From a virus, in the IMG/VR virus record IMGVR_UViG_3300032174_000021, positions 1 to 24,384 of that record: DNA of 24,384 nt; one strand, 5' to 3'. Positions 1 through 24,384 of this stretch are shown here, one piece after another. The translations under genes were made by a program, and so were the position numbers. Position 1 is the stretch's first letter, and each line of letters begins with the position of its first letter. The notes under the pieces are model-generated. The model saw only the letters and a program-made list of their open reading frames with translations. It was not told the origin of the DNA and did not search any database.

Positions 1-1104
1 TTACTTGTCCCGCCCTATGGTCTGAGCGTTCTTGTGATCCACCTTCCACGCCCCGAAGTCTGTGTACATCGACCCGAGGTACCCGAGGCCCTTGAGAGAC
101 TCAGGCTGAAGGGCATGCTGAAGTAACATGGTGTCCTGCGCCGCGTTCACGGTTCCAATGCCGTAGTTCCTCCAGAGGAAGGCGATGTCGTAGACTCCGT
201 TTTGGAAGAGCTTCGGGATTGCAGGGTCACTAAGCACTCCACGTACAAGCGACCAACAATGTCGTTCATCCGCGAGAGTCGGCCAGTAGCTTCGCGAAGC
301 TGATCGGTCGTCATCGAATGGAATAACGATCGCAAGGTCTGCTCTTGGAGCGAATCCAATGCAAGTAACGCGTGATCCACTTGTTTCAATGTCGACACTG
401 AGCAGAGAACATCCACAGATGTGGGCTTGAATGAACTCATCAATGTCGTTGATAGTTGGCTCGATCCAAACAGTACATCGCGGCCTTCGAACATCTGCAA
501 ACTCCTTCTCTCGGTTGGCTTTGATCAGGTCGTAGACGGTGGTGGGGCGGAGTTCCCACTGGCGAAGCACAGCGGCAGGATGGTAAGTAGGCAGGAGCTT
601 AAACCCACTAGCACAATGAGTAGAGATTGAAGTGGTACCTCGCAGTTTTGACACGCCAGTGCGGCCAGCGAGAGCCCACAAAGCTGTATTACCAAGGCAG
701 AGAATAAGGTTAGGGTCGTGATCAAGTATCTCCTCAGCCAACCGGTCGAGCTCTGGGGCGAACTCGGCACGGACGTACTTGGAGGGGAGGAGGGCTGGGT
801 AGGATTCGATGCCAGTGGACTTTGGACCACAAAAATGTTCCAGTCTGTTTCCGGGCGGATGCTGATTAAAGACGTTGGTCCGATATACCATTGGCCGAAC
901 CACTTCCCAGATGCGGTCCACACATTTAGGATCACCGCGTCGGTAGTACTCTGATATATGTGCGCGGTCAATGGAGGTAAGAGTGAGGATTCCTGCGTCA
1001 TTGAGCATCCTTAAGAGTTCTATTCCACTTGGACCGACGAAGCAGGAGTTGATACGGGCCTCCTGCTCGCCGCGAGCTTCGCCGACGATCATTAACGGTG
1101 TCAT
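1..1104 (-). CDS. Uracil-DNA glycosylase (family 4-like) fused to DNA polymerase I-type 3'-5' exonuclease domain
   Basis: The 367-residue protein has two parts. Residues 1-195 look like a family 4 uracil-DNA glycosylase: GEARGEQEA near residue 8, FVGPSG at 22-27 and the TYHPAAVLR motif at 173-181. Residues about 210-367 look like the proofreading exonuclease of family A DNA polymerases: Exo I is D238-x-E240, Exo II is N302-G-V-Y-D306, followed by D324 and the GLGYLGSMYTD segment. The expected third exonuclease motif (YxxxD) and the polymerase domain are missing, because a TAA occupies bases 1-3. The role is inferred to be uracil recognition or editing linked to phage DNA replication. ATG at 1104 overlaps the stop of the MazG-like gene (ATGA). 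The missing part may be a separate gene or exon beyond the window. Domain assignment is confident; the reason for truncation is not known. Confidence 0.85.
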   Translation of the reverse strand: MTPLMIVGEARGEQEARINSCFVGPSGIELLRMLNDAGILTLTSIDRAHISEYYRRGDPKCVDRIWEVVRPMVYRTNVFNQHPPGNRLEHFCGPKSTGIESYPALLPSKYVRAEFAPELDRLAEEILDHDPNLILCLGNTALWALAGRTGVSKLRGTTSISTHCASGFKLLPTYHPAAVLRQWELRPTTVYDLIKANREKEFADVRRPRCTVWIEPTINDIDEFIQAHICGCSLLSVDIETSGSRVTCIGFAPRADLAIVIPFDDDRSASRSYWPTLADERHCWSLVRGVLSDPAIPKLFQNGVYDIAFLWRNYGIGTVNAAQDTMLLQHALQPESLKGLGYLGSMYTDFGAWKVDHKNAQTIGRDK

Positions 1105-8969: not shown

Positions 8970-9338
8970 TCATGACTTCCCAATCCCCAGCTTTTCAAGG
9001 ATCATCTCAGCAGCCGAGCGTTGCTCCTCAGTGGTCTCGGCATAGAGGCGCTTGCGGGCTGCTTCGGTGCGACTGATGCGGGTGACTTGGGGTTGGTCAA
9101 GAGGCTCAACGTACTTCTGTGGGGCCGTAGGGGATTGCTTCTCGACACGGCGGGCCTTCAGTACGACGAGGGCATCAAGTAGGCCCTTAGTGCTGGCATC
9201 GTAGCGTTGAATGAACGGTGGGCCGCCGGACTTCATTGGTAGCTCAACAAAGATCGAGTGCTCGTCGTCGCTGATCCAAGCGACAATGTGCCAAGCTGGG
9301 CGGGGGTGTGGGTCCATGGAGTCGCCTCGGGGTGTCAT
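8970..9338 (-). CDS. Hypothetical protein, 122 residues
   Basis: N-terminal beta-rich part (WHIVAWISDDEHSIFVELPM, then PPFIQRYDAS), followed by a helix (GLLDALVVLKARRVEK) and a basic C-terminal helical tail (TEAARKRLYAETTEEQRSAA). ATG 9338 overlaps the upstream stop (ATGA); an internal ATG at 9317 is the alternative. The Glu/Arg-rich tail suggests protein-protein or DNA contacts. No family recognised. Confidence 0.65.
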   Translation of the reverse strand: MTPRGDSMDPHPRPAWHIVAWISDDEHSIFVELPMKSGGPPFIQRYDASTKGLLDALVVLKARRVEKQSPTAPQKYVEPLDQPQVTRISRTEAARKRLYAETTEEQRSAAEMILEKLGIGKS

Positions 9339-10213
9339 CGACGCATCCGGCTGGGGGTTGAGGGTGGCGTGGCAGCAACATCAACAAACAACTTCGCGCC
9401 AGTGATTGGCAACGGAGGTTCATCGGTTGTGTAGATGAAGGTCGCAGGTTCCGCAATGGGTGGTACGCCCTGCGGGCGCAGCTTCGCTTCAATTCGATCA
9501 AACGTGGCCTTGGTCATGCCATTGAGATCGACGACGTCATGGCGGTCGTGGTCGTAGAACCATACGCTATCAATGATGCCACGCTCCTTAAAGATTGGAA
9601 GCATAGTTCTATGTCGGCAGGTATGTCGTGTGCCCGCTGGGCATTCGCAAGCCTCCTCCGAACATAGGTAGGAGGATTCAACTGCACCTAAATCGTCGAA
9701 CTTGGTGATTCGAAAGCCTTTTGGACTAGACATACAATTGTATAAGGCCATGCGAACATGCCTCCATGATCGGTTTGTTTGAATGAAGTTTATTGCGGAC
9801 CAAGATACGTCGTATTCGCGCGCTAACTCAGCGCAGGTTTCACCCTTGGCGAGGCGCTTCTTAATCAATCTGACTGAAGCTTCGGTGAGCTTTGAGTTGC
9901 CGTTGGCGGAGCCTCTAATTATAGCTCTGCGCCCCTTGCGGAGCATATCGTGTACGTTATCCTGTTGAGTACCTAAGAATAAATGCTTAGGGTTTACGCA
10001 TAGGCGATTGTCGCATCTGTGCAACACATTTAAGTCATTTGGGATTGGGCCATAATGCAATTGCCATGAAACACGGTGCGCCATTTGATAGCGCCCGGCT
10101 ATAATGAATTGTCCATAGCCATTTGTGCAAGTTGAACCAGACCATTCCCAGCAGCCGCTAGGCATGATGTTCCATCGGCCCATAGCGTCGGATAGCTTAT
10201 TGGCAATGGTCAT
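9335..10213 (-). CDS. HNH endonuclease fused to an unrelated conserved phage protein
   Basis: From ATG 10213 (GGGGAAGG just upstream) the protein has 292 residues. Residues about 20-90 form a zinc-type HNH domain: GCWEWSG, GYGQF, AHRVSW, LHRCDNRLCVNPKHLFLGT (H65, C67, C72, H77), DNVHDMLRKGRR. Residues 109-154 hold a helix-turn-helix (LTEASVRLIKK, CAELAREYDVSWSAINFI) ending SWRHV, where free-standing HNH proteins of this class normally stop. Residue 161 onward (MSSPKGFRITKFDDLG) reads as a different phage protein, with a CECPAGTRHTCRHR cysteine cluster. This suggests a homing-type gene that landed just upstream of another gene and lost its stop. The HNH part looks AT-richer than its surroundings. 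An in-frame GTG at 10246 is less likely. Confidence 0.85.
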   Translation of the reverse strand: MTIANKLSDAMGRWNIMPSGCWEWSGSTCTNGYGQFIIAGRYQMAHRVSWQLHYGPIPNDLNVLHRCDNRLCVNPKHLFLGTQQDNVHDMLRKGRRAIIRGSANGNSKLTEASVRLIKKRLAKGETCAELAREYDVSWSAINFIQTNRSWRHVRMALYNCMSSPKGFRITKFDDLGAVESSYLCSEEACECPAGTRHTCRHRTMLPIFKERGIIDSVWFYDHDRHDVVDLNGMTKATFDRIEAKLRPQGVPPIAEPATFIYTTDEPPLPITGAKLFVDVAATPPSTPSRMRR

Positions 10214-10236
10214 GGCCTTCCCCATTATCTGCAGGT

Positions 10237-10265
10237 AGTATACCACACTAAGGCCAAGAAGTCAA
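10237..10265 (-). promoter_or_regulatory. Sigma70-like promoter, extended -10, minus strand
   Basis: On the minus strand TTGACT (10265-10260) and TATACT (10242-10237) are separated by exactly 17 bases ending GTGG. The predicted start near 10230 is about 17 bases before ATG 10213 of the HNH fusion gene, whose Shine-Dalgarno lies in between. The whole site overlaps a 12-bp inverted repeat, so it could be repressor-controlled. Confidence 0.75.
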
Positions 10266-10279
10266 TAGCCTTAGTGTGG
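10243..10279. repeat. 12-bp perfect inverted repeat overlapping promoter
   Basis: CCACACTAAGGC (10243-10254) and GCCTTAGTGTGG (10268-10279) are perfect complements separated by 13 bases. The -35 of the promoter lies in the spacer and one arm fills most of the -35/-10 spacer. It can act as an operator or as a transcript hairpin after the lipoprotein gene; no U-run follows it, so a simple terminator is less likely. Confidence 0.8.
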
Positions 10280-10294
10280 GCTTGTGTGGTGTGG

Positions 10295-10675
10295 TCAGCG
10301 AAGCTCAATCGAAGGCACAATAGCCGTAGGCTTAAAGGTGACGCGGTATTGATACACGCCAACCTTAGCGGCTTCCATCTGCTCAGAGAAGTAAGTCACG
10401 TTGTCGCTGAGCCCAAGGAAGTGTTTCTTGTAATCCCCTTCGCCAACCTTACAAGTGACTGTGAGTTTCTTATCTGAGTGTTCTTGAGAACATAACCCTT
10501 CAATGGTTAGCATGTAGTCGCCTGTTATGCCGTTGTAGAACACGATACGGCGATTGATCTTAAAGTTATCGGCGGCCTGTGAGAGGTTGTAGGAAGCCAC
10601 TTGTGCATCATTTGAACAAGCCGCTAAGCTAAGCCCTGCCGCTATAAGACCTGCTACTTTGATTGAGTGTGTCAT
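10295..10675 (-). CDS. Phage-encoded lipoprotein (beta-sandwich type)
   Basis: The 126-residue product starts MTHSIKVAGLIAAG and has a lipobox LAAC with the lipidated Cys at 20, followed by Ser at +2, compatible with outer-membrane sorting. The mature part is beta-rich: FKINRRIVFYNGITGDYML, CKVGEGDYKKHFLGLSDN, YQYRVTFKPTAI. This pattern recurs in phage proteins annotated as beta-sandwich lipoproteins; some phage lipoproteins block superinfection, but that role is only a possibility here. ATG 10675 is preferred because GGAG is eight bases upstream; ATG 10681 is only two bases from it. A terminator hairpin lies immediately upstream and a promoter-operator region downstream. Confidence 0.85.
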   Translation of the reverse strand: MTHSIKVAGLIAAGLSLAACSNDAQVASYNLSQAADNFKINRRIVFYNGITGDYMLTIEGLCSQEHSDKKLTVTCKVGEGDYKKHFLGLSDNVTYFSEQMEAAKVGVYQYRVTFKPTAIVPSIELR

Positions 10676-10695
10676 TGCCATCTCTCCATCTTGTT

Positions 10696-10733
10696 AAAAG
10701 AAAAGGGCAGGAGGGTTTGTGGCCCGCCTGCCC
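10696..10733 (-). terminator. Strong intrinsic terminator on minus strand
   Basis: Minus-strand GGGCAGGCGGG (10733-10723) pairs with CCCTCCTGCCC (10715-10705), one mismatch, seven-base loop, followed by TTTTCTTTT (10704-10696). It follows the gene ending at 10743. The next gene's Shine-Dalgarno (GGAG) begins only about ten bases further on, so the lipoprotein depends on read-through or on a promoter I did not find. Confidence 0.85.
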
Positions 10734-10742
10734 TTTGTGGGG

Positions 10743-11540
10743 TCAAGCGTAGAAGTTGTCCAAAGTCCCACCATTGGCGAGCCAGTATTCCTTGGTGCCT
10801 CTCAGTGGGCTGCTGTTGTAGCCATCCCAGAAGTCCTTCTGATCGATCTCAGACCAACGCTTCCCTGCGTACTTACCCACGCTTCCACCACGGTCCGAGA
10901 CAAACCCTGTGGGTTCGGCAGGCTGGGATGGGGCATTGGGCGATGGGGAGGCGGTCCCAGAGGCAGGGCTCAAAGGCAAAGGGCTGTCACCGCCGAACTG
11001 CGATGCACTGACCATCGGCTCGACAGAGGAAACAGGATGGTACTGGCCTTCCGTCGAAGCGGCAGATTGAGAAGGGTCCGCTTCACTCTGACCCTGAGGT
11101 TGCACAATGCCATCCGATGGCATCGGTTCGTGTCGGGTGTACCAGTCATCTGTATGGCCAGAGGATTGCTCTTGCGAGCCTTGCGCCTCTGGCTGTACCG
11201 TAGGGTTTACAGGGGCAGGCTCTGGCTTGTCCACCATGCCCACAGCCGAAGCAGCAGCTTGAATGAGCTTGGTAAGGCCGCCGTGCTTTTCTTCAAGCTC
11301 CAGAAACCGAAGCTCGGCGTCATCACGCTCTGCCTCCAGTTTGTGGTTGCGCTGATTGAGCGACTCGATCTCGGCCTTGAGGTTGAGGATGCGCTCCTCA
11401 CAGGACTGCACAGTTGAGCGGAGGGTGTCAACCTCAGCGTGCGCTTCTGCTAGGTCTGTGCGAACCTTCGGAAGCTCCTCCATCGCCTTGGCCATCTCGA
11501 CCAAGTCAGTGACGAAGTTGTTGACTGCATGCGGACTCAT
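10743..11540 (-). CDS. Coiled-coil protein with low-complexity linker
   Basis: The 265-residue protein has three parts. Residues about 15-95 are a long heptad coiled coil (ELPKVRTDLAEAHAEVDTL, ILNLKAEIESLNQRNHKLEA). Residues about 105-215 are a disordered Pro/Ser/Gln/Glu-rich linker. The C-terminal 45 residues are a compact conserved-looking segment (GKYAGKRWSEIDQKDFWDGY, GTKEYWLANGGTLDNFYA). The layout suggests an oligomeric scaffold or adaptor carrying a small C-terminal binding domain. AAAGGT lies six bases before ATG 11540. Homologs are not recognised. It is followed by a strong terminator. Confidence 0.75.
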   Translation of the reverse strand: MSPHAVNNFVTDLVEMAKAMEELPKVRTDLAEAHAEVDTLRSTVQSCEERILNLKAEIESLNQRNHKLEAERDDAELRFLELEEKHGGLTKLIQAAASAVGMVDKPEPAPVNPTVQPEAQGSQEQSSGHTDDWYTRHEPMPSDGIVQPQGQSEADPSQSAASTEGQYHPVSSVEPMVSASQFGGDSPLPLSPASGTASPSPNAPSQPAEPTGFVSDRGGSVGKYAGKRWSEIDQKDFWDGYNSSPLRGTKEYWLANGGTLDNFYA

Positions 11541-11803
11541 AGTCGGACCTTTCTGTTTGATTGCTCACTGGGGCCTGTGGGAGCAAGCTCCTCTACCCTC
11601 AGTCTTTGCATGGTAGTACCCCAAGGGGCGCTGTGGATATACCACCCGCTACCTTGGGGTTAGTCGGACGTAAGGGATCACTGAGCGATCCTTGGCTGTG
11701 CCAATCTGGTAGATCATGCTTGGGTTGATTTAGTATTTCACCACAAGCAGTCTTGCGTACCAGCTTCCAATTACTCGCTCAGTGCACACTCAAGCAGTGC
11801 CGC
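11541..11803. other. Intergenic region with several dyad-symmetric elements
   Basis: No convincing gene was found here. It holds a GGAGC-AA-GCTCC palindrome within a CTGTGGGAGCAAGCTCC sequence (11575-11591) that resembles Pseudomonas-type REP elements, a nested dyad at 11618-11660, and an AAGGGATC/GATCCTT dyad at 11672-11693. AGTCGGAC occurs twice (11541-11548, 11662-11669). On the minus strand GTGGTATATC has an extended -10 look but only a poor -35. Confidence 0.5.
11618..11660. repeat. Nested inverted repeat centred on 11639
   Basis: ACCCCAAGG (11618-11626) and CCTTGGGGT (11652-11660) are perfect complements. GTGG (11633-11636) and CCAC (11642-11645) form a second dyad with the same centre, around ATATA. 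The sequences between inner and outer arms do not pair. This could be a protein-binding site or an RNA hairpin upstream of the coiled-coil gene. Confidence 0.7.
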
Positions 11804-13368: not shown

Positions 13369-13557
13369 CTAATGCGAGCATATGACATGGCCATCTCTAT
13401 CAACCTTGATTGGTGCGGGCCAACCGTCGGGATTAGTTCCAGCCATCAACGTAGCTGGGCCAATAGTTACAGTGTCGATATTACCAGAGCCCCTGGGTAG
13501 TTCTTGCGCCAAAGCGGTTGCGCACAACCCCAGAATGAAACCAATGGTTAGGCGCAT
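13369..13557 (-). CDS. Small exported protein
   Basis: The 62-residue product has a classic short Sec signal, MRLTIGFILGLCATALAQ, with probable cleavage after ALA at 17. The 45-residue mature part (ELPRGSGNIDTVTIGPATLM, then DGWPAPIKVDRDGHVICSH) has one Cys and looks beta-rich. GGAG is six bases before ATG 13557, two bases after the upstream stop. Location in the leftward early cluster suggests an envelope-directed accessory factor. No family recognised. Confidence 0.7.
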   Translation of the reverse strand: MRLTIGFILGLCATALAQELPRGSGNIDTVTIGPATLMAGTNPDGWPAPIKVDRDGHVICSH

Positions 13558-20102: not shown

Positions 20103-20584
20103 CCCAAGCCTCCACGCACGACCGCAAGTCCGTACGCGAGGCCGAGAAGGCACAGCGCCTTGCCGATGCCCGTCGTGAAGGTGTCGTCAAGCTTCTGATG
20201 TCCACCCCCGACGGCCGCGAATGGACCTTCGACCTCCTCGGCCGTTGCCACCTCTTCAGCACCACCTACACCGCCGACTCGCGCCAGTCCAGCTTCCTCG
20301 AGGGCGAGCGCAACATTGGCCTGATGCTCCTCGGGGACATCCTCCGCGTTTGCCCAGAACTCTACCTTCAAGCCCAAAGAGAATCCAATGACCGACACAA
20401 CAGTGACGACCGATCCGCCGCTTCAGAACGACCCAGCAGCGAGGACCGAGGACGGCCAGATCAAGGACGTGAGGGACCAGACGCCAGCGCCGACGACAAC
20501 GCAGACAACGGAGACGAAGCCAGCCGAGACGAAGCAGACAACCGATTCGACATCAGCCGATACCTCCCAAAAGGAACCGGCTGA
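20099..20584 (+). CDS. Bbp19-like phage protein with overlapping C-terminal extension
   Basis: Residues 1-95 (REAEKAQRLADARREGVVKL, then EWTFDLLGRCHLFSTTYTAD, GLMLLGDILRVCPELYLQAQ) match the small Bbp19-type proteins found between portal and scaffold genes of BPP-1-like phages. The usual protein ends near here. In this window the frame continues 66 more residues in an Asp/Arg/Ser/Glu-rich stretch that overlaps the start of the scaffold gene in another frame by 197 bases. The core is well supported. The extension may be a lost stop or genuine overprinting. Confidence 0.75.
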   Translation: MTQASTHDRKSVREAEKAQRLADARREGVVKLLMSTPDGREWTFDLLGRCHLFSTTYTADSRQSSFLEGERNIGLMLLGDILRVCPELYLQAQRESNDRHNSDDRSAASERPSSEDRGRPDQGREGPDASADDNADNGDEASRDEADNRFDISRYLPKGTG

Positions 20585-20942
20585 CGACAAGAAGCCCGAC
20601 CCCGCCGCTGGCGCCCCTGAGAAGTACGCCGACTTCGAAGCCCCGGAAGGCCTCACTGTCGACCCCAAGGTCATCGAGTCCGCGGTCCCCATCTTCAAGG
20701 AACTGAACCTCTCCCAAGACCAAGCCCAGAAGCTGTTCGACTTCTACACCACGCAGCAGAAGGCCCTGATCTCCGCTCCCCAGGAAGCCTTCAACGCCAC
20801 CGTCAAGCAATGGCGCGCCGACACCGCTGCCCACGCCGACATCAAGAACGCAGCCGTCGATGGCAAGATCGGCGTGGACGCCGCCATGATCAACATTGGC
20901 CGCGCCAAGCAGACCTCCGCACTGAGTTCGAGCAGGCCATGA
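20388..20942 (+). CDS. Scaffold-like capsid assembly protein, N-terminal part
   Basis: The 184-residue frame starts with a Thr/Pro/Asp-rich segment (PAPTTTQTTETKPAETKQTT) and continues into a scaffold-like body: YADFEAPEGLTVDPKVIESA, FKELNLSQDQAQKLFDFYTT, VKQWRADTAAHADIKNAAVD. It then ends abruptly in a short odd tail (SALSSSRP). The typical scaffold C terminus is in the -1 frame immediately downstream (20939-21130). This fits a one-base deletion in a run of C, a programmed frameshift or a split gene. Scaffold proteins guide capsid assembly and are lost from the virion. A weak GAGA precedes ATG 20388. Confidence 0.8.
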   Translation: MTDTTVTTDPPLQNDPAARTEDGQIKDVRDQTPAPTTTQTTETKPAETKQTTDSTSADTSQKEPADDKKPDPAAGAPEKYADFEAPEGLTVDPKVIESAVPIFKELNLSQDQAQKLFDFYTTQQKALISAPQEAFNATVKQWRADTAAHADIKNAAVDGKIGVDAAMINIGRAKQTSALSSSRP

Positions 20943-21130
20943 ACACCACCGGCGTTGGTGACCACCCCGCCTTCGTGCGCGCCCTGAACAAGTTCGGGCA
21001 GTTGTTTGGTGAAGGCAAGTTCGTCAATGGCGGCGGTCCCTCGCCCCATGGCCAAAAGGCCCCCGGCGCCCCCGACAAGCCCTCGCCAGCCCAAGCCCTA
21101 TTCCCCAAGCTCCCTAGCGCAGCTGGTTAA
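20939..21130 (+). CDS. Scaffold C-terminal part, separated by a -1 frame change
   Basis: The frame carries LRTEFEQAMNTTGVGDHPAF and ALNKFGQLFGEGKFV, the standard C terminus of podovirus scaffold proteins, ending in a Pro-rich tail and QALFPKL. Read continuously with the preceding frame after ACC at 20913-20915 it gives AKQT-LRTEFEQ. It could also start at ATG 20939, which forms an ATGA overlap with the stop of the N-terminal part, giving a 63-residue separate product. A Shine-Dalgarno is poor (AGG three bases upstream). Which of these occurs cannot be decided here. Confidence 0.7.
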   Translation: MNTTGVGDHPAFVRALNKFGQLFGEGKFVNGGGPSPHGQKAPGAPDKPSPAQALFPKLPSAAG

Positions 21131-21136
21131 AGCAAT

Positions 21137-21634
21137 ATGCTCGACTACGACCGCTTAGTAGACCTGTTTGACCTATACGACGACGGTCGCTTCGTTAATC
21201 GAATCAGTCGTGGCCGCGCCAAAGCTGGCGAGCGAGCAGGTTACTTGGACGTTCATGGCTATCGACGCCTCGTTATCGATTACGTCAAGTACTACGAACA
21301 TCACTTGGTTTGGTTTTACGTCCACGGCGAATGGCCCGACGAAATCGACCACATCGATGGCAACTCAGCGAACAACGCGCCAACCAACTTGCGCTTGTGC
21401 AACCGTTCACAGAACAACTGTAATTCCCAAAGACCAACTGGCGAGTCCGGCCTGAGAGGGGCGTACTTGGATAAGCGGAACCTACAATGGTATTCCAAAA
21501 TCCAATTCGGCGGTCAAGTGAAGTTCTTGGGCAACTTCAGTTCAGCGGAAGAGGCTCACCTTGCCTTTGAAGTTGCGGCTGAAAAACTTCACCGGGACTT
21601 CTACGTCCCACCACAACCCGCTATAGGACCATAA
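21137..21634 (+). CDS. HNH homing endonuclease with AP2-like DNA-binding domain
   Basis: The 165-residue protein has an HNH core (VWFYVHGEWPDEIDHIDGNS, NNAPTNLRLCNRSQNNCNS), where H73 lies in DHIDGN and N82 onward forms the last part. A C-terminal AP2-like domain follows (GLRGAYLDKRNLQWYSKIQF, LGNFSSAEEAHLAFEVAAEK). This architecture is typical of free-standing phage homing endonucleases. It lies between the scaffold and major capsid genes, whose order is normally contiguous, so it is an insertion. Its codon choice is less GC-rich than its neighbours. The ribosome binding site is weak. Confidence 0.9.
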   Translation: MLDYDRLVDLFDLYDDGRFVNRISRGRAKAGERAGYLDVHGYRRLVIDYVKYYEHHLVWFYVHGEWPDEIDHIDGNSANNAPTNLRLCNRSQNNCNSQRPTGESGLRGAYLDKRNLQWYSKIQFGGQVKFLGNFSSAEEAHLAFEVAAEKLHRDFYVPPQPAIGP

Positions 21635-21637
21635 CTC

Positions 21638-22681
21638 ATGGCAACGCAAGGAAGTCTCGCGTTAAGCTACGCGGACTGGGCAAAACGAGTTGACGACGGC
21701 TATCGCATCGCCGCCATCATCGAGCTCCTCTCCCAGACCAACGAAATCCTTGACGACATCCTCGTCATGGAAGGCAACCTGCCCACTGGGCACAAGACCA
21801 CAGTCCGCACCGGCCTCCCGCAGGCCACATGGCGCCTGCTCAACGCCGGTGTCCCCAACGCCAAGTCCACCACGGCACAGATCGTCGACACCTGCGGCAA
21901 CCTCGAAACCTACTCCGTCATCGACAAGGACATTGCGGACCTCAACGGCAACACCGCTGAGTTCCGCCTATCCGAAGTCCGTGCGTTCCTCGAGGGCATG
22001 TCCCAGCAGGTCGCCTCAACCTTCATCTACGGCAACCAGCACCTGAACCCCGAGCGGTTCACTGGCCTTGCTCCACGGTACTCCACCGTCAACTCCTCGA
22101 ACTCTCAGACTGCCGCTAACGTTCTTGATGCGGGTGGAACTGCTTCCACGAACACCTCTATGTGGATTCCTACTTGGGGTAGCGACACTCTGCACGGCAT
22201 CTTCCCCAAAGGCAAGATCACTGGCCTTCAGCACCGTGACATGGGCGAGTGGCCCGTGGCCGATGCCTCTGGCAACACCTACCAAGCCTACCGCGACCAC
22301 TTCAAGTGGGAGGTTGGGCTCACGCTTCGCGACTGGCGCTATTGCGTCCGCATCGCCAACATCGATGTAACTCAGCTGACAGGCGTCTCCGCCGCCAACC
22401 TGATCAACCTGATCGTGCGCGGCCTCTACCGCCTGCCTACTGCCCCCACCCAAGCCACGGCGATCCAGACCTCCGACTCCCCTGAGGTCCGCGCCAACAT
22501 GGGCCGGGTGATGATCTACTGCAACAGGATCATCCGGACGTATTTGGACCTTCAGGCGATGAACAAAACCAACGTGCTCCTTCGCCTCGAAGAGTTCAAC
22601 GGCCGAGTGGTGACCACCTTCCGCGGCATCCCTGTTCGTACAGTGGACGCCATCCTCAACAACGAAGCTCAAGTGACCTGA
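21638..22681 (+). CDS. Major capsid protein, BPP-1 Bbp17-like
   Basis: The 347-residue protein matches the capsid family of BPP-1-like phages: N-terminal SYADWAKRVDDGYRIAAIIE, EILDDILVMEGNLPTGHKTT, the VRTGLPQATWRLLN strand, SVIDKDIADLNGNTAEFRLSE, a long central beta region, and C-terminal RTYLDLQAMNKTNVLLRLEE followed by GIPVRTVDAIL. These features are those of HK97-fold capsids of this group. AGGA lies nine bases before ATG 21638. It forms the icosahedral shell with the Bbp16-like cement protein encoded next. Confidence 0.92.
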   Translation: MATQGSLALSYADWAKRVDDGYRIAAIIELLSQTNEILDDILVMEGNLPTGHKTTVRTGLPQATWRLLNAGVPNAKSTTAQIVDTCGNLETYSVIDKDIADLNGNTAEFRLSEVRAFLEGMSQQVASTFIYGNQHLNPERFTGLAPRYSTVNSSNSQTAANVLDAGGTASTNTSMWIPTWGSDTLHGIFPKGKITGLQHRDMGEWPVADASGNTYQAYRDHFKWEVGLTLRDWRYCVRIANIDVTQLTGVSAANLINLIVRGLYRLPTAPTQATAIQTSDSPEVRANMGRVMIYCNRIIRTYLDLQAMNKTNVLLRLEEFNGRVVTTFRGIPVRTVDAILNNEAQVT

Positions 22682-22696
22682 GCACGGAGACCCATC

Positions 22697-23230
22697 ATGA
22701 TCTTAGACTGGCTACTCTCCTTCACTGGGGCTTCACCCTCAGCCCCCACTGACTCCCCAACCATTGGCACCCAAGTCGCCTCGAACATCATCGACCTTGG
22801 TGTCATCTTGGGCATTCCCACTTCCGCCAACGGCGGTGGCGCGCGTGACATTGGCGTCGGCGACCACCCTTCGCTGAAGCTCTCAGCCTTGGTCACCACC
22901 GCCTTTGCCTCAGGCACCTCGCTTCAGCTTGAGCTCTCTGGTGCCCCTGACAACGGCTCTGGGGTCCCCGGTGCCTACACTGTGATGTGGCTTGGCCCCG
23001 CCGTCGTCGAGGCCACCCTCGTTGCTGGCATGCAACTCGCCAACATCGATGTCCCTCGCCCAGTCGCAGGCCAAGTCCTCCCACGGTTCCTACGCCTGCG
23101 CTACATCACTGTAGGCACGCACACCGCGGGTGCCCTTGAAGCCAACATTGTCATCGACCGTGACGACCAGATCGTCGGCACCACCGGCCTCTACTCCGGC
23201 TACCCCGCTGGCATCACCGTGTCGAACTGA
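22697..23230 (+). CDS. Capsid cement protein, Bbp16-like
   Basis: The 177-residue protein begins MILDWLLSFTGAS and contains GTQVASNIIDLGV, RDIGVGDHPSLKLSALVTT, FASGTSLQLELSGAPDNGSG and RFLRLRYITVGTHTAGALEA. These match the Bbp16-type jellyroll cement proteins that decorate BPP-1-like capsids. GGAG lies eight bases before ATG 22697, and it directly follows the capsid gene. It stabilises the mature head by binding between capsomers in known relatives. Confidence 0.9.
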   Translation: MILDWLLSFTGASPSAPTDSPTIGTQVASNIIDLGVILGIPTSANGGGARDIGVGDHPSLKLSALVTTAFASGTSLQLELSGAPDNGSGVPGAYTVMWLGPAVVEATLVAGMQLANIDVPRPVAGQVLPRFLRLRYITVGTHTAGALEANIVIDRDDQIVGTTGLYSGYPAGITVSN

Positions 23231-23238
23231 GGCACACC

Positions 23239-23871
23239 ATGAAGCTCAAACATCTCACTCTAGGTGCTCTGCTTTGGCTAGGGGCAGCTTCGGCTGCCTT
23301 TGCCCAAGCAGTCAACACCGTTCCCCAGGTTGGCGTCATCTCTGCAATCCAGAAGCAGCCGACCTACACCGCCTCGTCAGTTGGCCTCGTCCCTGCCTCC
23401 TCGGCCACTGACATCTGGTGCATCTCCCCCGGTGCCTCCCGTAACATCTCGATTCGCTCGATCAAGATCACCGGCACTGCTGGCACCGCCGTCACCACGC
23501 CGTTCCTTGTCTACCGGCGTGTGTCCCTCGACACTGGTGGCACTCCAGCAACCTCGCTGGCACTTCCAGTGGCGGCGAAGCTCAACCCAGCGGATGGGAC
23601 CTCCACTGCCACTCTCGTCGCCTACACCGCAAACCCCACGGTGGTGGACTCCTCTCCCGTCCTCATGGACGTGATCCAACCTACCCTTGCGGTCACCACC
23701 ACTGCCAATGCTCAGCCCCCAGTCACCGCCTACGGTGAAACTATTGGCTGGTTCACCCATGGCCTCATACTTCAAAAGAACACCACCCAACAGGTCTGTG
23801 TGAACCTCAATGGCGTCACCGTCTCCTCGGGCGTCTTGAACATTACCGCTCAGTGGGTGGAGACACCGTGA
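23239..23871 (+). CDS. Predicted secreted or virion-associated protein with Sec signal
   Basis: The 210-residue protein starts with a Sec-type signal (MKLKHLTLGALLWLGAASAA, cleavage after AFA at 22). The mature part is a Thr/Ala/Val-rich beta protein (SIRSIKITGTAGTAVTTPFL, GTSTATLVAYTANPTVV, GVLNITAQWVETP). It reads like a beta-sandwich surface protein. GAGG is six bases before ATG 23239. Its position after the cement gene suggests a virion or host-envelope role, but phage virion proteins rarely carry Sec signals. Similar genes occur in phages and prophages, but function is unknown. Confidence 0.75.
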   Translation: MKLKHLTLGALLWLGAASAAFAQAVNTVPQVGVISAIQKQPTYTASSVGLVPASSATDIWCISPGASRNISIRSIKITGTAGTAVTTPFLVYRRVSLDTGGTPATSLALPVAAKLNPADGTSTATLVAYTANPTVVDSSPVLMDVIQPTLAVTTTANAQPPVTAYGETIGWFTHGLILQKNTTQQVCVNLNGVTVSSGVLNITAQWVETP

Positions 23872-24332
23872 TGCGGAAGCTCCTCTTAGCCCTCGCTGGC
23901 TTCGCCCTTGGCTTCAGCCTCGTCTGGTTCACCCCGGGTCTTGCCCAGAACTTCACCCGCGGGATGCAGTTCAGTCAAGACACCTCTGGTGCCTTCGGCA
24001 TCGACACCAACAGCGGTATCTACTTCCCAGGGCACATCCTATCCACTGGCGTCAATCGCCCTGCACCAACTCTCGGCGCCTGCGTCACCGGCGGCTCCCC
24101 AACCCTTGTTGGCACTGACTTCGCTGGCACCATCACCGCTGGCACCACTGCCTCCACTTCCTGCACTGTTACCTTTGGGCAAGCCTTCGGTGCAGCCCCT
24201 ACCTGTGTAGTATCTTGGGCATCAGGCCCTCTCGCCGCGATGTCATGGACAACCTCCACCACCGTCCTCACTATTACACAGACTTCGAACGCTAGCTCCA
24301 AGATCATGTACATCTGCACGAGCACATCATGA
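23871..24332 (+). CDS. Second predicted exported beta-rich protein
   Basis: From ATG 23871 (GGAG nine bases upstream, ATG overlapping the previous stop) the protein has 153 residues. It starts with a signal (MRKLLLALAGFALGFSLVWF, cleavage after GLA at 25). The mature part has NFTRGMQFSQDTSGAFGID and a C-terminal beta domain TLGACVTGGSPTLVGTDFAG with four cysteines (ACV, SCT, TCV, ICT) that could form disulfides in the periplasm. The domain recalls repeat domains of tail-associated or exported phage proteins. Function unknown. Confidence 0.75.
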   Translation: MRKLLLALAGFALGFSLVWFTPGLAQNFTRGMQFSQDTSGAFGIDTNSGIYFPGHILSTGVNRPAPTLGACVTGGSPTLVGTDFAGTITAGTTASTSCTVTFGQAFGAAPTCVVSWASGPLAAMSWTTSTTVLTITQTSNASSKIMYICTSTS

Positions 24333-24384
24333 ACCGTATCAGCGCTGGACTTATCATTCTCCTTGGGCTGGCAAGTCCAGCGCT
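24329..24384 (+). CDS. Partial gene, third signal-peptide protein, cut by window edge
   Basis: ATG 24329 forms an ATGA overlap with the preceding stop and opens MNRISAGLIILLGLASPA up to the window edge. This is a typical signal peptide with probable cleavage after SPA. It continues beyond 24384. The overlap and matching architecture make it part of the same run of exported proteins. Confidence 0.6.
   Translation, partial: MNRISAGLIILLGLASPA

Follow-up and report, generated by a model that had tools for sequence, protein, structure and literature searches.

The DNA analyzed here (hereafter the window) corresponds to positions 1 to 24,384 of a single IMG/VR record of 24,384 bases, IMGVR_UViG_3300032174_000021. 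Pfam and PHROG matches show that a late module of the BPP-1/epsilon15 podovirus type begins in its right half, with successive genes encoding a Head-tail_con portal, a Bbp19-like protein, a protease/scaffold-like protein, an HNH endonuclease, a GP7-type major capsid protein and a Bbp16-type cement protein. The portal, capsid and cement genes (Pfam PF12236, PF20911 and PF21190, all above cut-off) are arranged in the BPP-1/epsilon15 order. A preliminary description of this DNA reported three successive signal-bearing genes right after the cement gene, within the virion gene module. Our analysis confirms the trio, any cleavage site of gene 3 falling beyond the record end, as well as its placement, with the capsid and cement genes directly upstream and the block inside the late operon (Table 1). 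The N-termini of genes 1 and 2 (MKLKHLTLGALLWLGAASAAFA and MRKLLLALAGFALGFSLVWFTPGLA, each followed by Q) combine basic residues in the n-region with a hydrophobic h-region and end in an AxA-type site, and that of gene 3 (MNRISAGLIILLGLASPA...) has the same basic and hydrophobic start before the record ends. Since the reading frames overlap (genes 1 and 2 by TGATG, genes 2 and 3 by ATGA), the three genes are probably translationally coupled. An exact DNA pattern search, in a collection from which near-identical records may be missing, did not find the continuation of the window past position 24384.

Table 1. Genes and protein features at the right end of the window
Feature	Position	Strand	Details
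GP7-type major capsid protein	21638..22681	+	Pfam PF20911, E 5.5e-133; PHROG 212 major head protein
Bbp16-type cement protein, without signal	22697..23230	+	Pfam PF21190, 33.3 bits (cut-off 27.1)
Signal-bearing protein 1 (P0001, 210 aa)	23239..23871	+	Jelly-roll-like mature domain; Cys61 and Cys187
Predicted signal peptide, protein 1	23239..23304	+	22 aa; AFA/Q; Q23 invariant in family alignment
Signal-bearing protein 2 (P0002, 153 aa)	23871..24332	+	Signal, linker, fibre-tip-like C-terminal beta domain
Cysteines of protein 2			Cys71, Cys98, Cys112, Cys149
Predicted signal peptide, protein 2	23871..23945	+	25 aa; GLA/Q; Q26 invariant
C-terminal domain of protein 2 (residues 67-153)	24069..24329	+	Like tailspike ends and H-type lectins
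Signal-bearing gene 3, start only	24329..24384	+	18 complete codons, then record end

Several other features of the window deserve mention. Two overlapping frames (20388-20942 and 20810-21130, + strand) match parts 28-177 and 190-237 of the 246 positions of PHROG 458 (protease), which is a single gene of 232-251 aa in relatives; the split is a frameshift, a sequencing error or real. The HNH endonuclease gene upstream of the capsid gene occupies 21137-21634 (+), and an HNH-like frame is found on the opposite strand (9335-10246, -). Outside the late module, a small lipoprotein with an LAAC lipobox-like motif (10295-10681, -) matches Pfam PF25682 Phage_VG64 (E 1.7e-52) and adds a further exported protein to this phage. 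A 62-aa frame (13369-13557, -) has a signal-like N-terminus (MRLTIGFILGLCATALAQ...) and was not called as a gene by the gene caller used. Finally, the frame that reaches the record end at 1-1104 (-) fuses a uracil-DNA-glycosylase domain to a DNA polymerase A-type 3'-5' exonuclease domain.

The further members that the preliminary description proposed to seek past the window end were found in relatives. Loci whose capsid is 85-91% identical carry a run of signal-bearing genes (hereafter the block) directly after the cement gene. Between the capsid gene and the Bbp14-like gene, at least 113 of 345 genes are signal-bearing in 33 distinct loci, these being the loci that contain both boundary genes (one of them is devoid of any signal gene); 113 is a lower bound, as the blind choice of start codons misses some signals. 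The content of the block differs strongly among relatives, while members of the protein 1 or protein 2 families recur throughout the lineage and the block is present in all six near-complete genomes. The late modules of BPP-1, phiV10 and Caulobacter phage BL94, unlike that of the window lineage, are free of signal genes (0/51 for the three together). The block is also missing from 28 relatives that are more remote and come from Pseudomonas and Gastranaerophilales genomes, where the small gene and then Bbp14- and Bbp13-sized genes stand directly after cement, and from eight loci (capsid 38-66% identical) found in the taxonomic order of the Telmatospirillum MAG. In sum, the ordinary gene order is displayed by about 36 relatives at greater distance, whose GP7 capsid does not exceed 66% identity. 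Judging from these gene orders, the block is a derived trait of the lineage.

Close capsids were found only on MAG contigs of conflicting phyla, and a profile search of 385 genomes from the alphaproteobacterial class of one such MAG, intended to locate the host, gave no matches. In several relatives (L010:12563-13654, L011:12559-13650 and others), a polytopic membrane protein of about 350 aa adjoins protein 2. It matches Wzy_C in one relative with an E value of 0.0099, below the cut-off of this family, and is possibly O-antigen polymerase- or ligase-like. In another relative (G001), a signal-bearing 232-aa protein without significant Pfam match is encoded downstream of the lysis genes (L085:4878-5576, -).

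Signals were scored with a home-made heuristic for n-, h- and c-regions. In the six near-complete relatives, this scorer was positive for 31 of 80 genes inside the block versus seven of 352 outside it, which places three signals in a row far beyond chance. With start codons picked blind to the signal, it also detected signals in 61 of 66 distinct homologs of protein 1 and in all 48 of protein 2. The n-, h- and c-regions with an AxA-type site are present in genes 1 and 2 and in their homologs by the same scorer, and the Gln at position +1 after AxA is invariant in both families. The five signal-less homologs of protein 1 are 27-31% identical, fall outside the lineage and are carried by contigs without detected GP7-type capsid. 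The background rate of the scorer and the blind-start counts make a chance origin of the signals and wrong start codons unlikely. Neither protein 1 nor protein 2 has a lipobox cysteine at the cleavage site, which rules out that they are lipoproteins, including those of the Llp type involved in superinfection exclusion. No lytic domain of the SAR endolysin or spanin kind was found in them: neither protein matches Pfam or a lysis PHROG.

Cysteine counts provide a line of evidence that does not depend on the scorer. Mature homologs of protein 2 have four cysteines (35/48) or two (13/48) and never an odd number; one pair is gained and lost as a unit in this family. Two or four cysteines are found in 60 of the 61 mature homologs of protein 1. 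The equivalent of Cys61 is present in 59 of the 66 aligned sequences, including most of the signal-bearing ones; all five signal-less homologs lack it and all five keep its partner Cys187. Over the whole block, after reduction to 50% identity, even counts of mature cysteines outnumber odd ones (54 vs 11), whereas the proteins without signal from the same genomes show 21 even and 37 odd counts (Fisher P 1.2e-7 against the block), and counts are near 50:50 for portal, capsid and terminase. Such even numbers are what one would expect if disulfide bonding in an oxidising compartment were under selection, and we regard them as the strongest independent evidence that the signals are likely functional. 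The Sec export that the preliminary description had read from the three N-termini thus appears well supported, by heuristic signal prediction in the homologs together with cysteine pairing.

The structure prediction that had been suggested as a check yielded a jelly-roll-like protein 1 and a fibre-tip-like domain in protein 2, both with middling matches; Foldseek returned no match with E ≤ 0.001 for either model. In a relative, a signal-bearing fibre of 1003 aa contains a homolog of the mature domain of protein 2 at residues 912-999 (HMM E 3.7e-25). The protein 2 model has a pLDDT of about 90 across the C-terminal domain, whose structural matches (VIA Z 5.3-6.3; Foldseek probability 0.99, E 0.15) include the C-terminal beta domains of the Sf6, LKA1 and Pam1 tailspikes, of pyocin R1/R2 fibres and of H-type lectins. 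Unlike these, protein 2 is a separate short polypeptide with a signal and paired cysteines. Tailspikes and fibres also have Collar and pectate-lyase domains in common with other block proteins. For the beta protein modelled from protein 1, the matches are again middling and fall on virus capsids, the HFTV1 turret and cement proteins of phages. The mature domain of protein 1 resembles jelly-roll decorations (HFTV1 turret, KHP40 and Pam1 cement; Z 6.5-7.9) and its gene, like that of a decoration, comes right after the cement gene; however, it differs from them by its signal peptide and conserved cysteine pair, and many unrelated jelly rolls score equally. A single-sequence scan with protein 1 gave no matches, and alignment-based scans recovered homologs. 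A protein 1-like domain without signal also occurs in unrelated phage contigs (L246, L248, L249, L252 and L253); in L246, its gene is flanked by major head protein and minor tail protein genes.

Among the 74 block proteins scanned, three have a Phage Tail Collar domain above cut-off, and others carry pectate-lyase, C1q, SASA esterase, NosD/beta-helix, concanavalin-type or glycine-rich domains. Tail-fibre and tail-collar PHROGs recur among block proteins. In one fibre family, whose mature start is QCNGVF..NTVCGN, the first 60 residues are conserved (median normalised score 0.42) and the last 150 are at shuffled background (0.05); the conserved mature N-terminus begins right after the cleavage site. 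A fixed N-terminus with a swapped C-terminus is the pattern that an attachment part with exchanged receptor-binding parts would give. These fibre-type domains and swapped C-termini are seen in the block proteins of relatives, not in the two complete genes of the window. In 21 of 22 loci, the start of this fibre gene overlaps the end of a small signal-less gene by 4 bases; the exceptional locus shows no signal and contains an inserted HNH-like gene. In L004, an HNH-like gene separates the small coupled gene from the signal-bearing fibre. The small gene encodes a conserved signal-less protein of 141 aa with a DLDQGG motif (L011:16531-16956 and homologs), which is a candidate adaptor.

The six near-complete relatives were read through in search of ordinary fibres. 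Four of them have identical ends of 121-127 bases and were therefore taken as circularly closed. From capsid to lysis, all signal-less late genes of at least 200 aa are accounted for in the six genomes (capsid, membrane protein, Bbp14, Bbp13, Bbp11, Bbp10 and lysis/small membrane gene). A tblastn search found Bbp10 and Bbp13 in all six; the same search gave no significant match to BPP-1 Bbp9, Mtd or two Bbp9-like genes in these genomes. In the four closed genomes, no gene was recognisable as a signal-less fibre. The window itself stops upstream of the Bbp9/Mtd position, so the absence of such fibres is a result obtained on its relatives. As a podovirus needs adhesins, the block proteins are the best fibre candidates. 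In one genome, a GH108 endolysin gene follows Bbp10, and release therefore probably occurs through ordinary lysis.

Comparison with BPP-1 (a Bordetella phage, Rauchvirus) and with epsilon15/phiV10 (Uetakevirus) delimits what is peculiar to this lineage. These phages share the GP7-type capsid, the Head-tail_con portal and the Bbp16 cement protein, and the order of Bbp14, Bbp13, Bbp12, Bbp11 and Bbp10-like genes is common to them and to the relatives of the window. However, in these phages one or two small genes separate cement from Bbp14/Bbp13, whereas the window and its close relatives have the signal block there. Furthermore, Bbp9/Mtd-type fibres are encoded after Bbp10 in BPP-1/epsilon15 and were not detected in the relatives of the window.

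The block proteins are most likely fibres, spikes, and capsid or fibre decorations of this podovirus lineage. On balance, we consider it probable that a late-operon block encoding Sec-exported adhesion proteins begins with the three genes, and that its products would be joined to the particles at lysis. Signal peptidase would cleave these proteins after AxA, before the conserved Gln, and the mature proteins would then fold and oxidise in the periplasm. Once holin and endolysin breach the inner membrane, they could attach to otherwise finished particles, or do so just after release, and form the receptor-binding and decoration layer of the virion. Protein 1 would be a jelly-roll decoration or form the head of a fibre, and protein 2 would be a lectin-like fibre tip that stands alone; both are small and could instead be accessory proteins. 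A bolder proposal, which we advance with some doubt, is that the entire receptor-binding apparatus may be Sec-exported, disulfide-folded in the periplasm and assembled at lysis, amounting to a two-compartment assembly of the virion. Two points count against the reading as exported adhesion proteins joined to particles: we know of no mechanism by which a tailed phage picks up periplasmic fibres, and both models gave middling structural matches (Z 6-8).

The main rival to a place on the virion is that the proteins are exported and stay off the particle, as secreted or surface lectins and polysaccharide enzymes acting on the envelope or matrix of the infected cell itself. They would serve in receptor masking, superinfection exclusion or capsule release, jointly with the membrane protein adjoining protein 2 in some relatives. 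The signals and disulfide-type cysteines would suit any function outside the cytoplasm, the SASA and pectate lyase domains are enzyme-like, and the adjoining polytopic protein has its weak Wzy_C match in favor of such a role, although this match is below cut-off. A precedent is offered by WceF of Pantoea stewartii, a tailspike-fold enzyme that is exported from the cytoplasm via Tat and modifies exopolysaccharide (PMC7949094). It is an exported tailspike-fold protein, but it is a bacterial gene product, uses Tat and is encoded outside a phage late operon. A non-virion role would leave these phages with no recognisable fibre or spike, and Collar domains and conserved N-termini with swapped C-termini are traits of virion fibres. 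We therefore hold it to be rather unlikely, and the envelope-directed system apart from the virion that the preliminary description suggested, for example for receptor masking, loses ground given the fibre- and spike-type families and the lack of a signal-less fibre.

Two other readings seem much less plausible. The hydrophobic N-terminus could be an uncleaved anchor retained in the membrane or virion, with folding and assembly in the cytoplasm, and the signal calls do rest on a heuristic predictor. However, the conservation of AxA/Q with an invariant Gln at +1 in both families, the even cysteines that co-vary in signal-bearing homologs (one partner being lost in signal-less ones) and the fibre whose conserved mature N-terminus starts directly after the site make this very unlikely. 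The strong variation of block content between relatives would fit moron-type accessory genes acquired from hosts and without general role in the phage life cycle. The recurrence of the protein 1 and 2 families, the absence of any near-complete genome without the block (0/6), the location inside the late operon and the translational coupling all argue against it, and we regard it as the least probable reading.

The preliminary description recognised no described system, and our searches agree: signal-bearing tail fibres were not found in the literature searched, which took in few subscription papers. Named phages yielded no relatives of protein 1, protein 2, two block fibres, the fibre N-terminus or the small coupled protein. 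Tailed-phage virions are taught to assemble entirely within the cytoplasm, and the preliminary description reasoned from this premise that virion proteins are not exported; the signal-bearing fibre-type proteins call it into question. A lack of signal peptides has even served to argue for the phage origin of a variable protein (PMC6199706). The parts appear to be fibre- and decoration-type proteins; the two-compartment assembly would be new if shown. A large group of uncultured soil phages seems to Sec-export fibre- and spike-type adhesins; should these end up on particles, an extra stage would have to be added to the standard view of how phages assemble. Such a second, periplasmic stage becomes directly testable in a lineage whose fibre-type proteins combine export signals with disulfide-type cysteines, and disulfide-bonded fibres could account for stability outside the cell. 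Furthermore, environmental phages of a common group will have their fibres overlooked by annotation tools and receptor-binding-protein predictors that drop secreted proteins.

Fibre-type proteins related to this question also occur outside the lineage. Part of the N-terminal sequence of the QCNGVF..NTVCGN fibre (NGQIQYNNGGALGG) was found in many other viral contigs, within mostly signal-less proteins. A distant phage with a GP7 capsid (41% identical) on the 62.7-kb contig IMGVR_UViG_2654588101_000002 encodes a signal-bearing fibre-type protein of 851 aa (L322:7122-9677), and signal-bearing fibre-like proteins are encoded on contigs without detected GP7 capsid (L340:6471-7832; L328:7599-9770 and 9770-11623); no relatives of the L322 and L340 proteins were found in named phages. 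Since these three loci lie outside the lineage, signal-bearing fibres may have arisen more than once.
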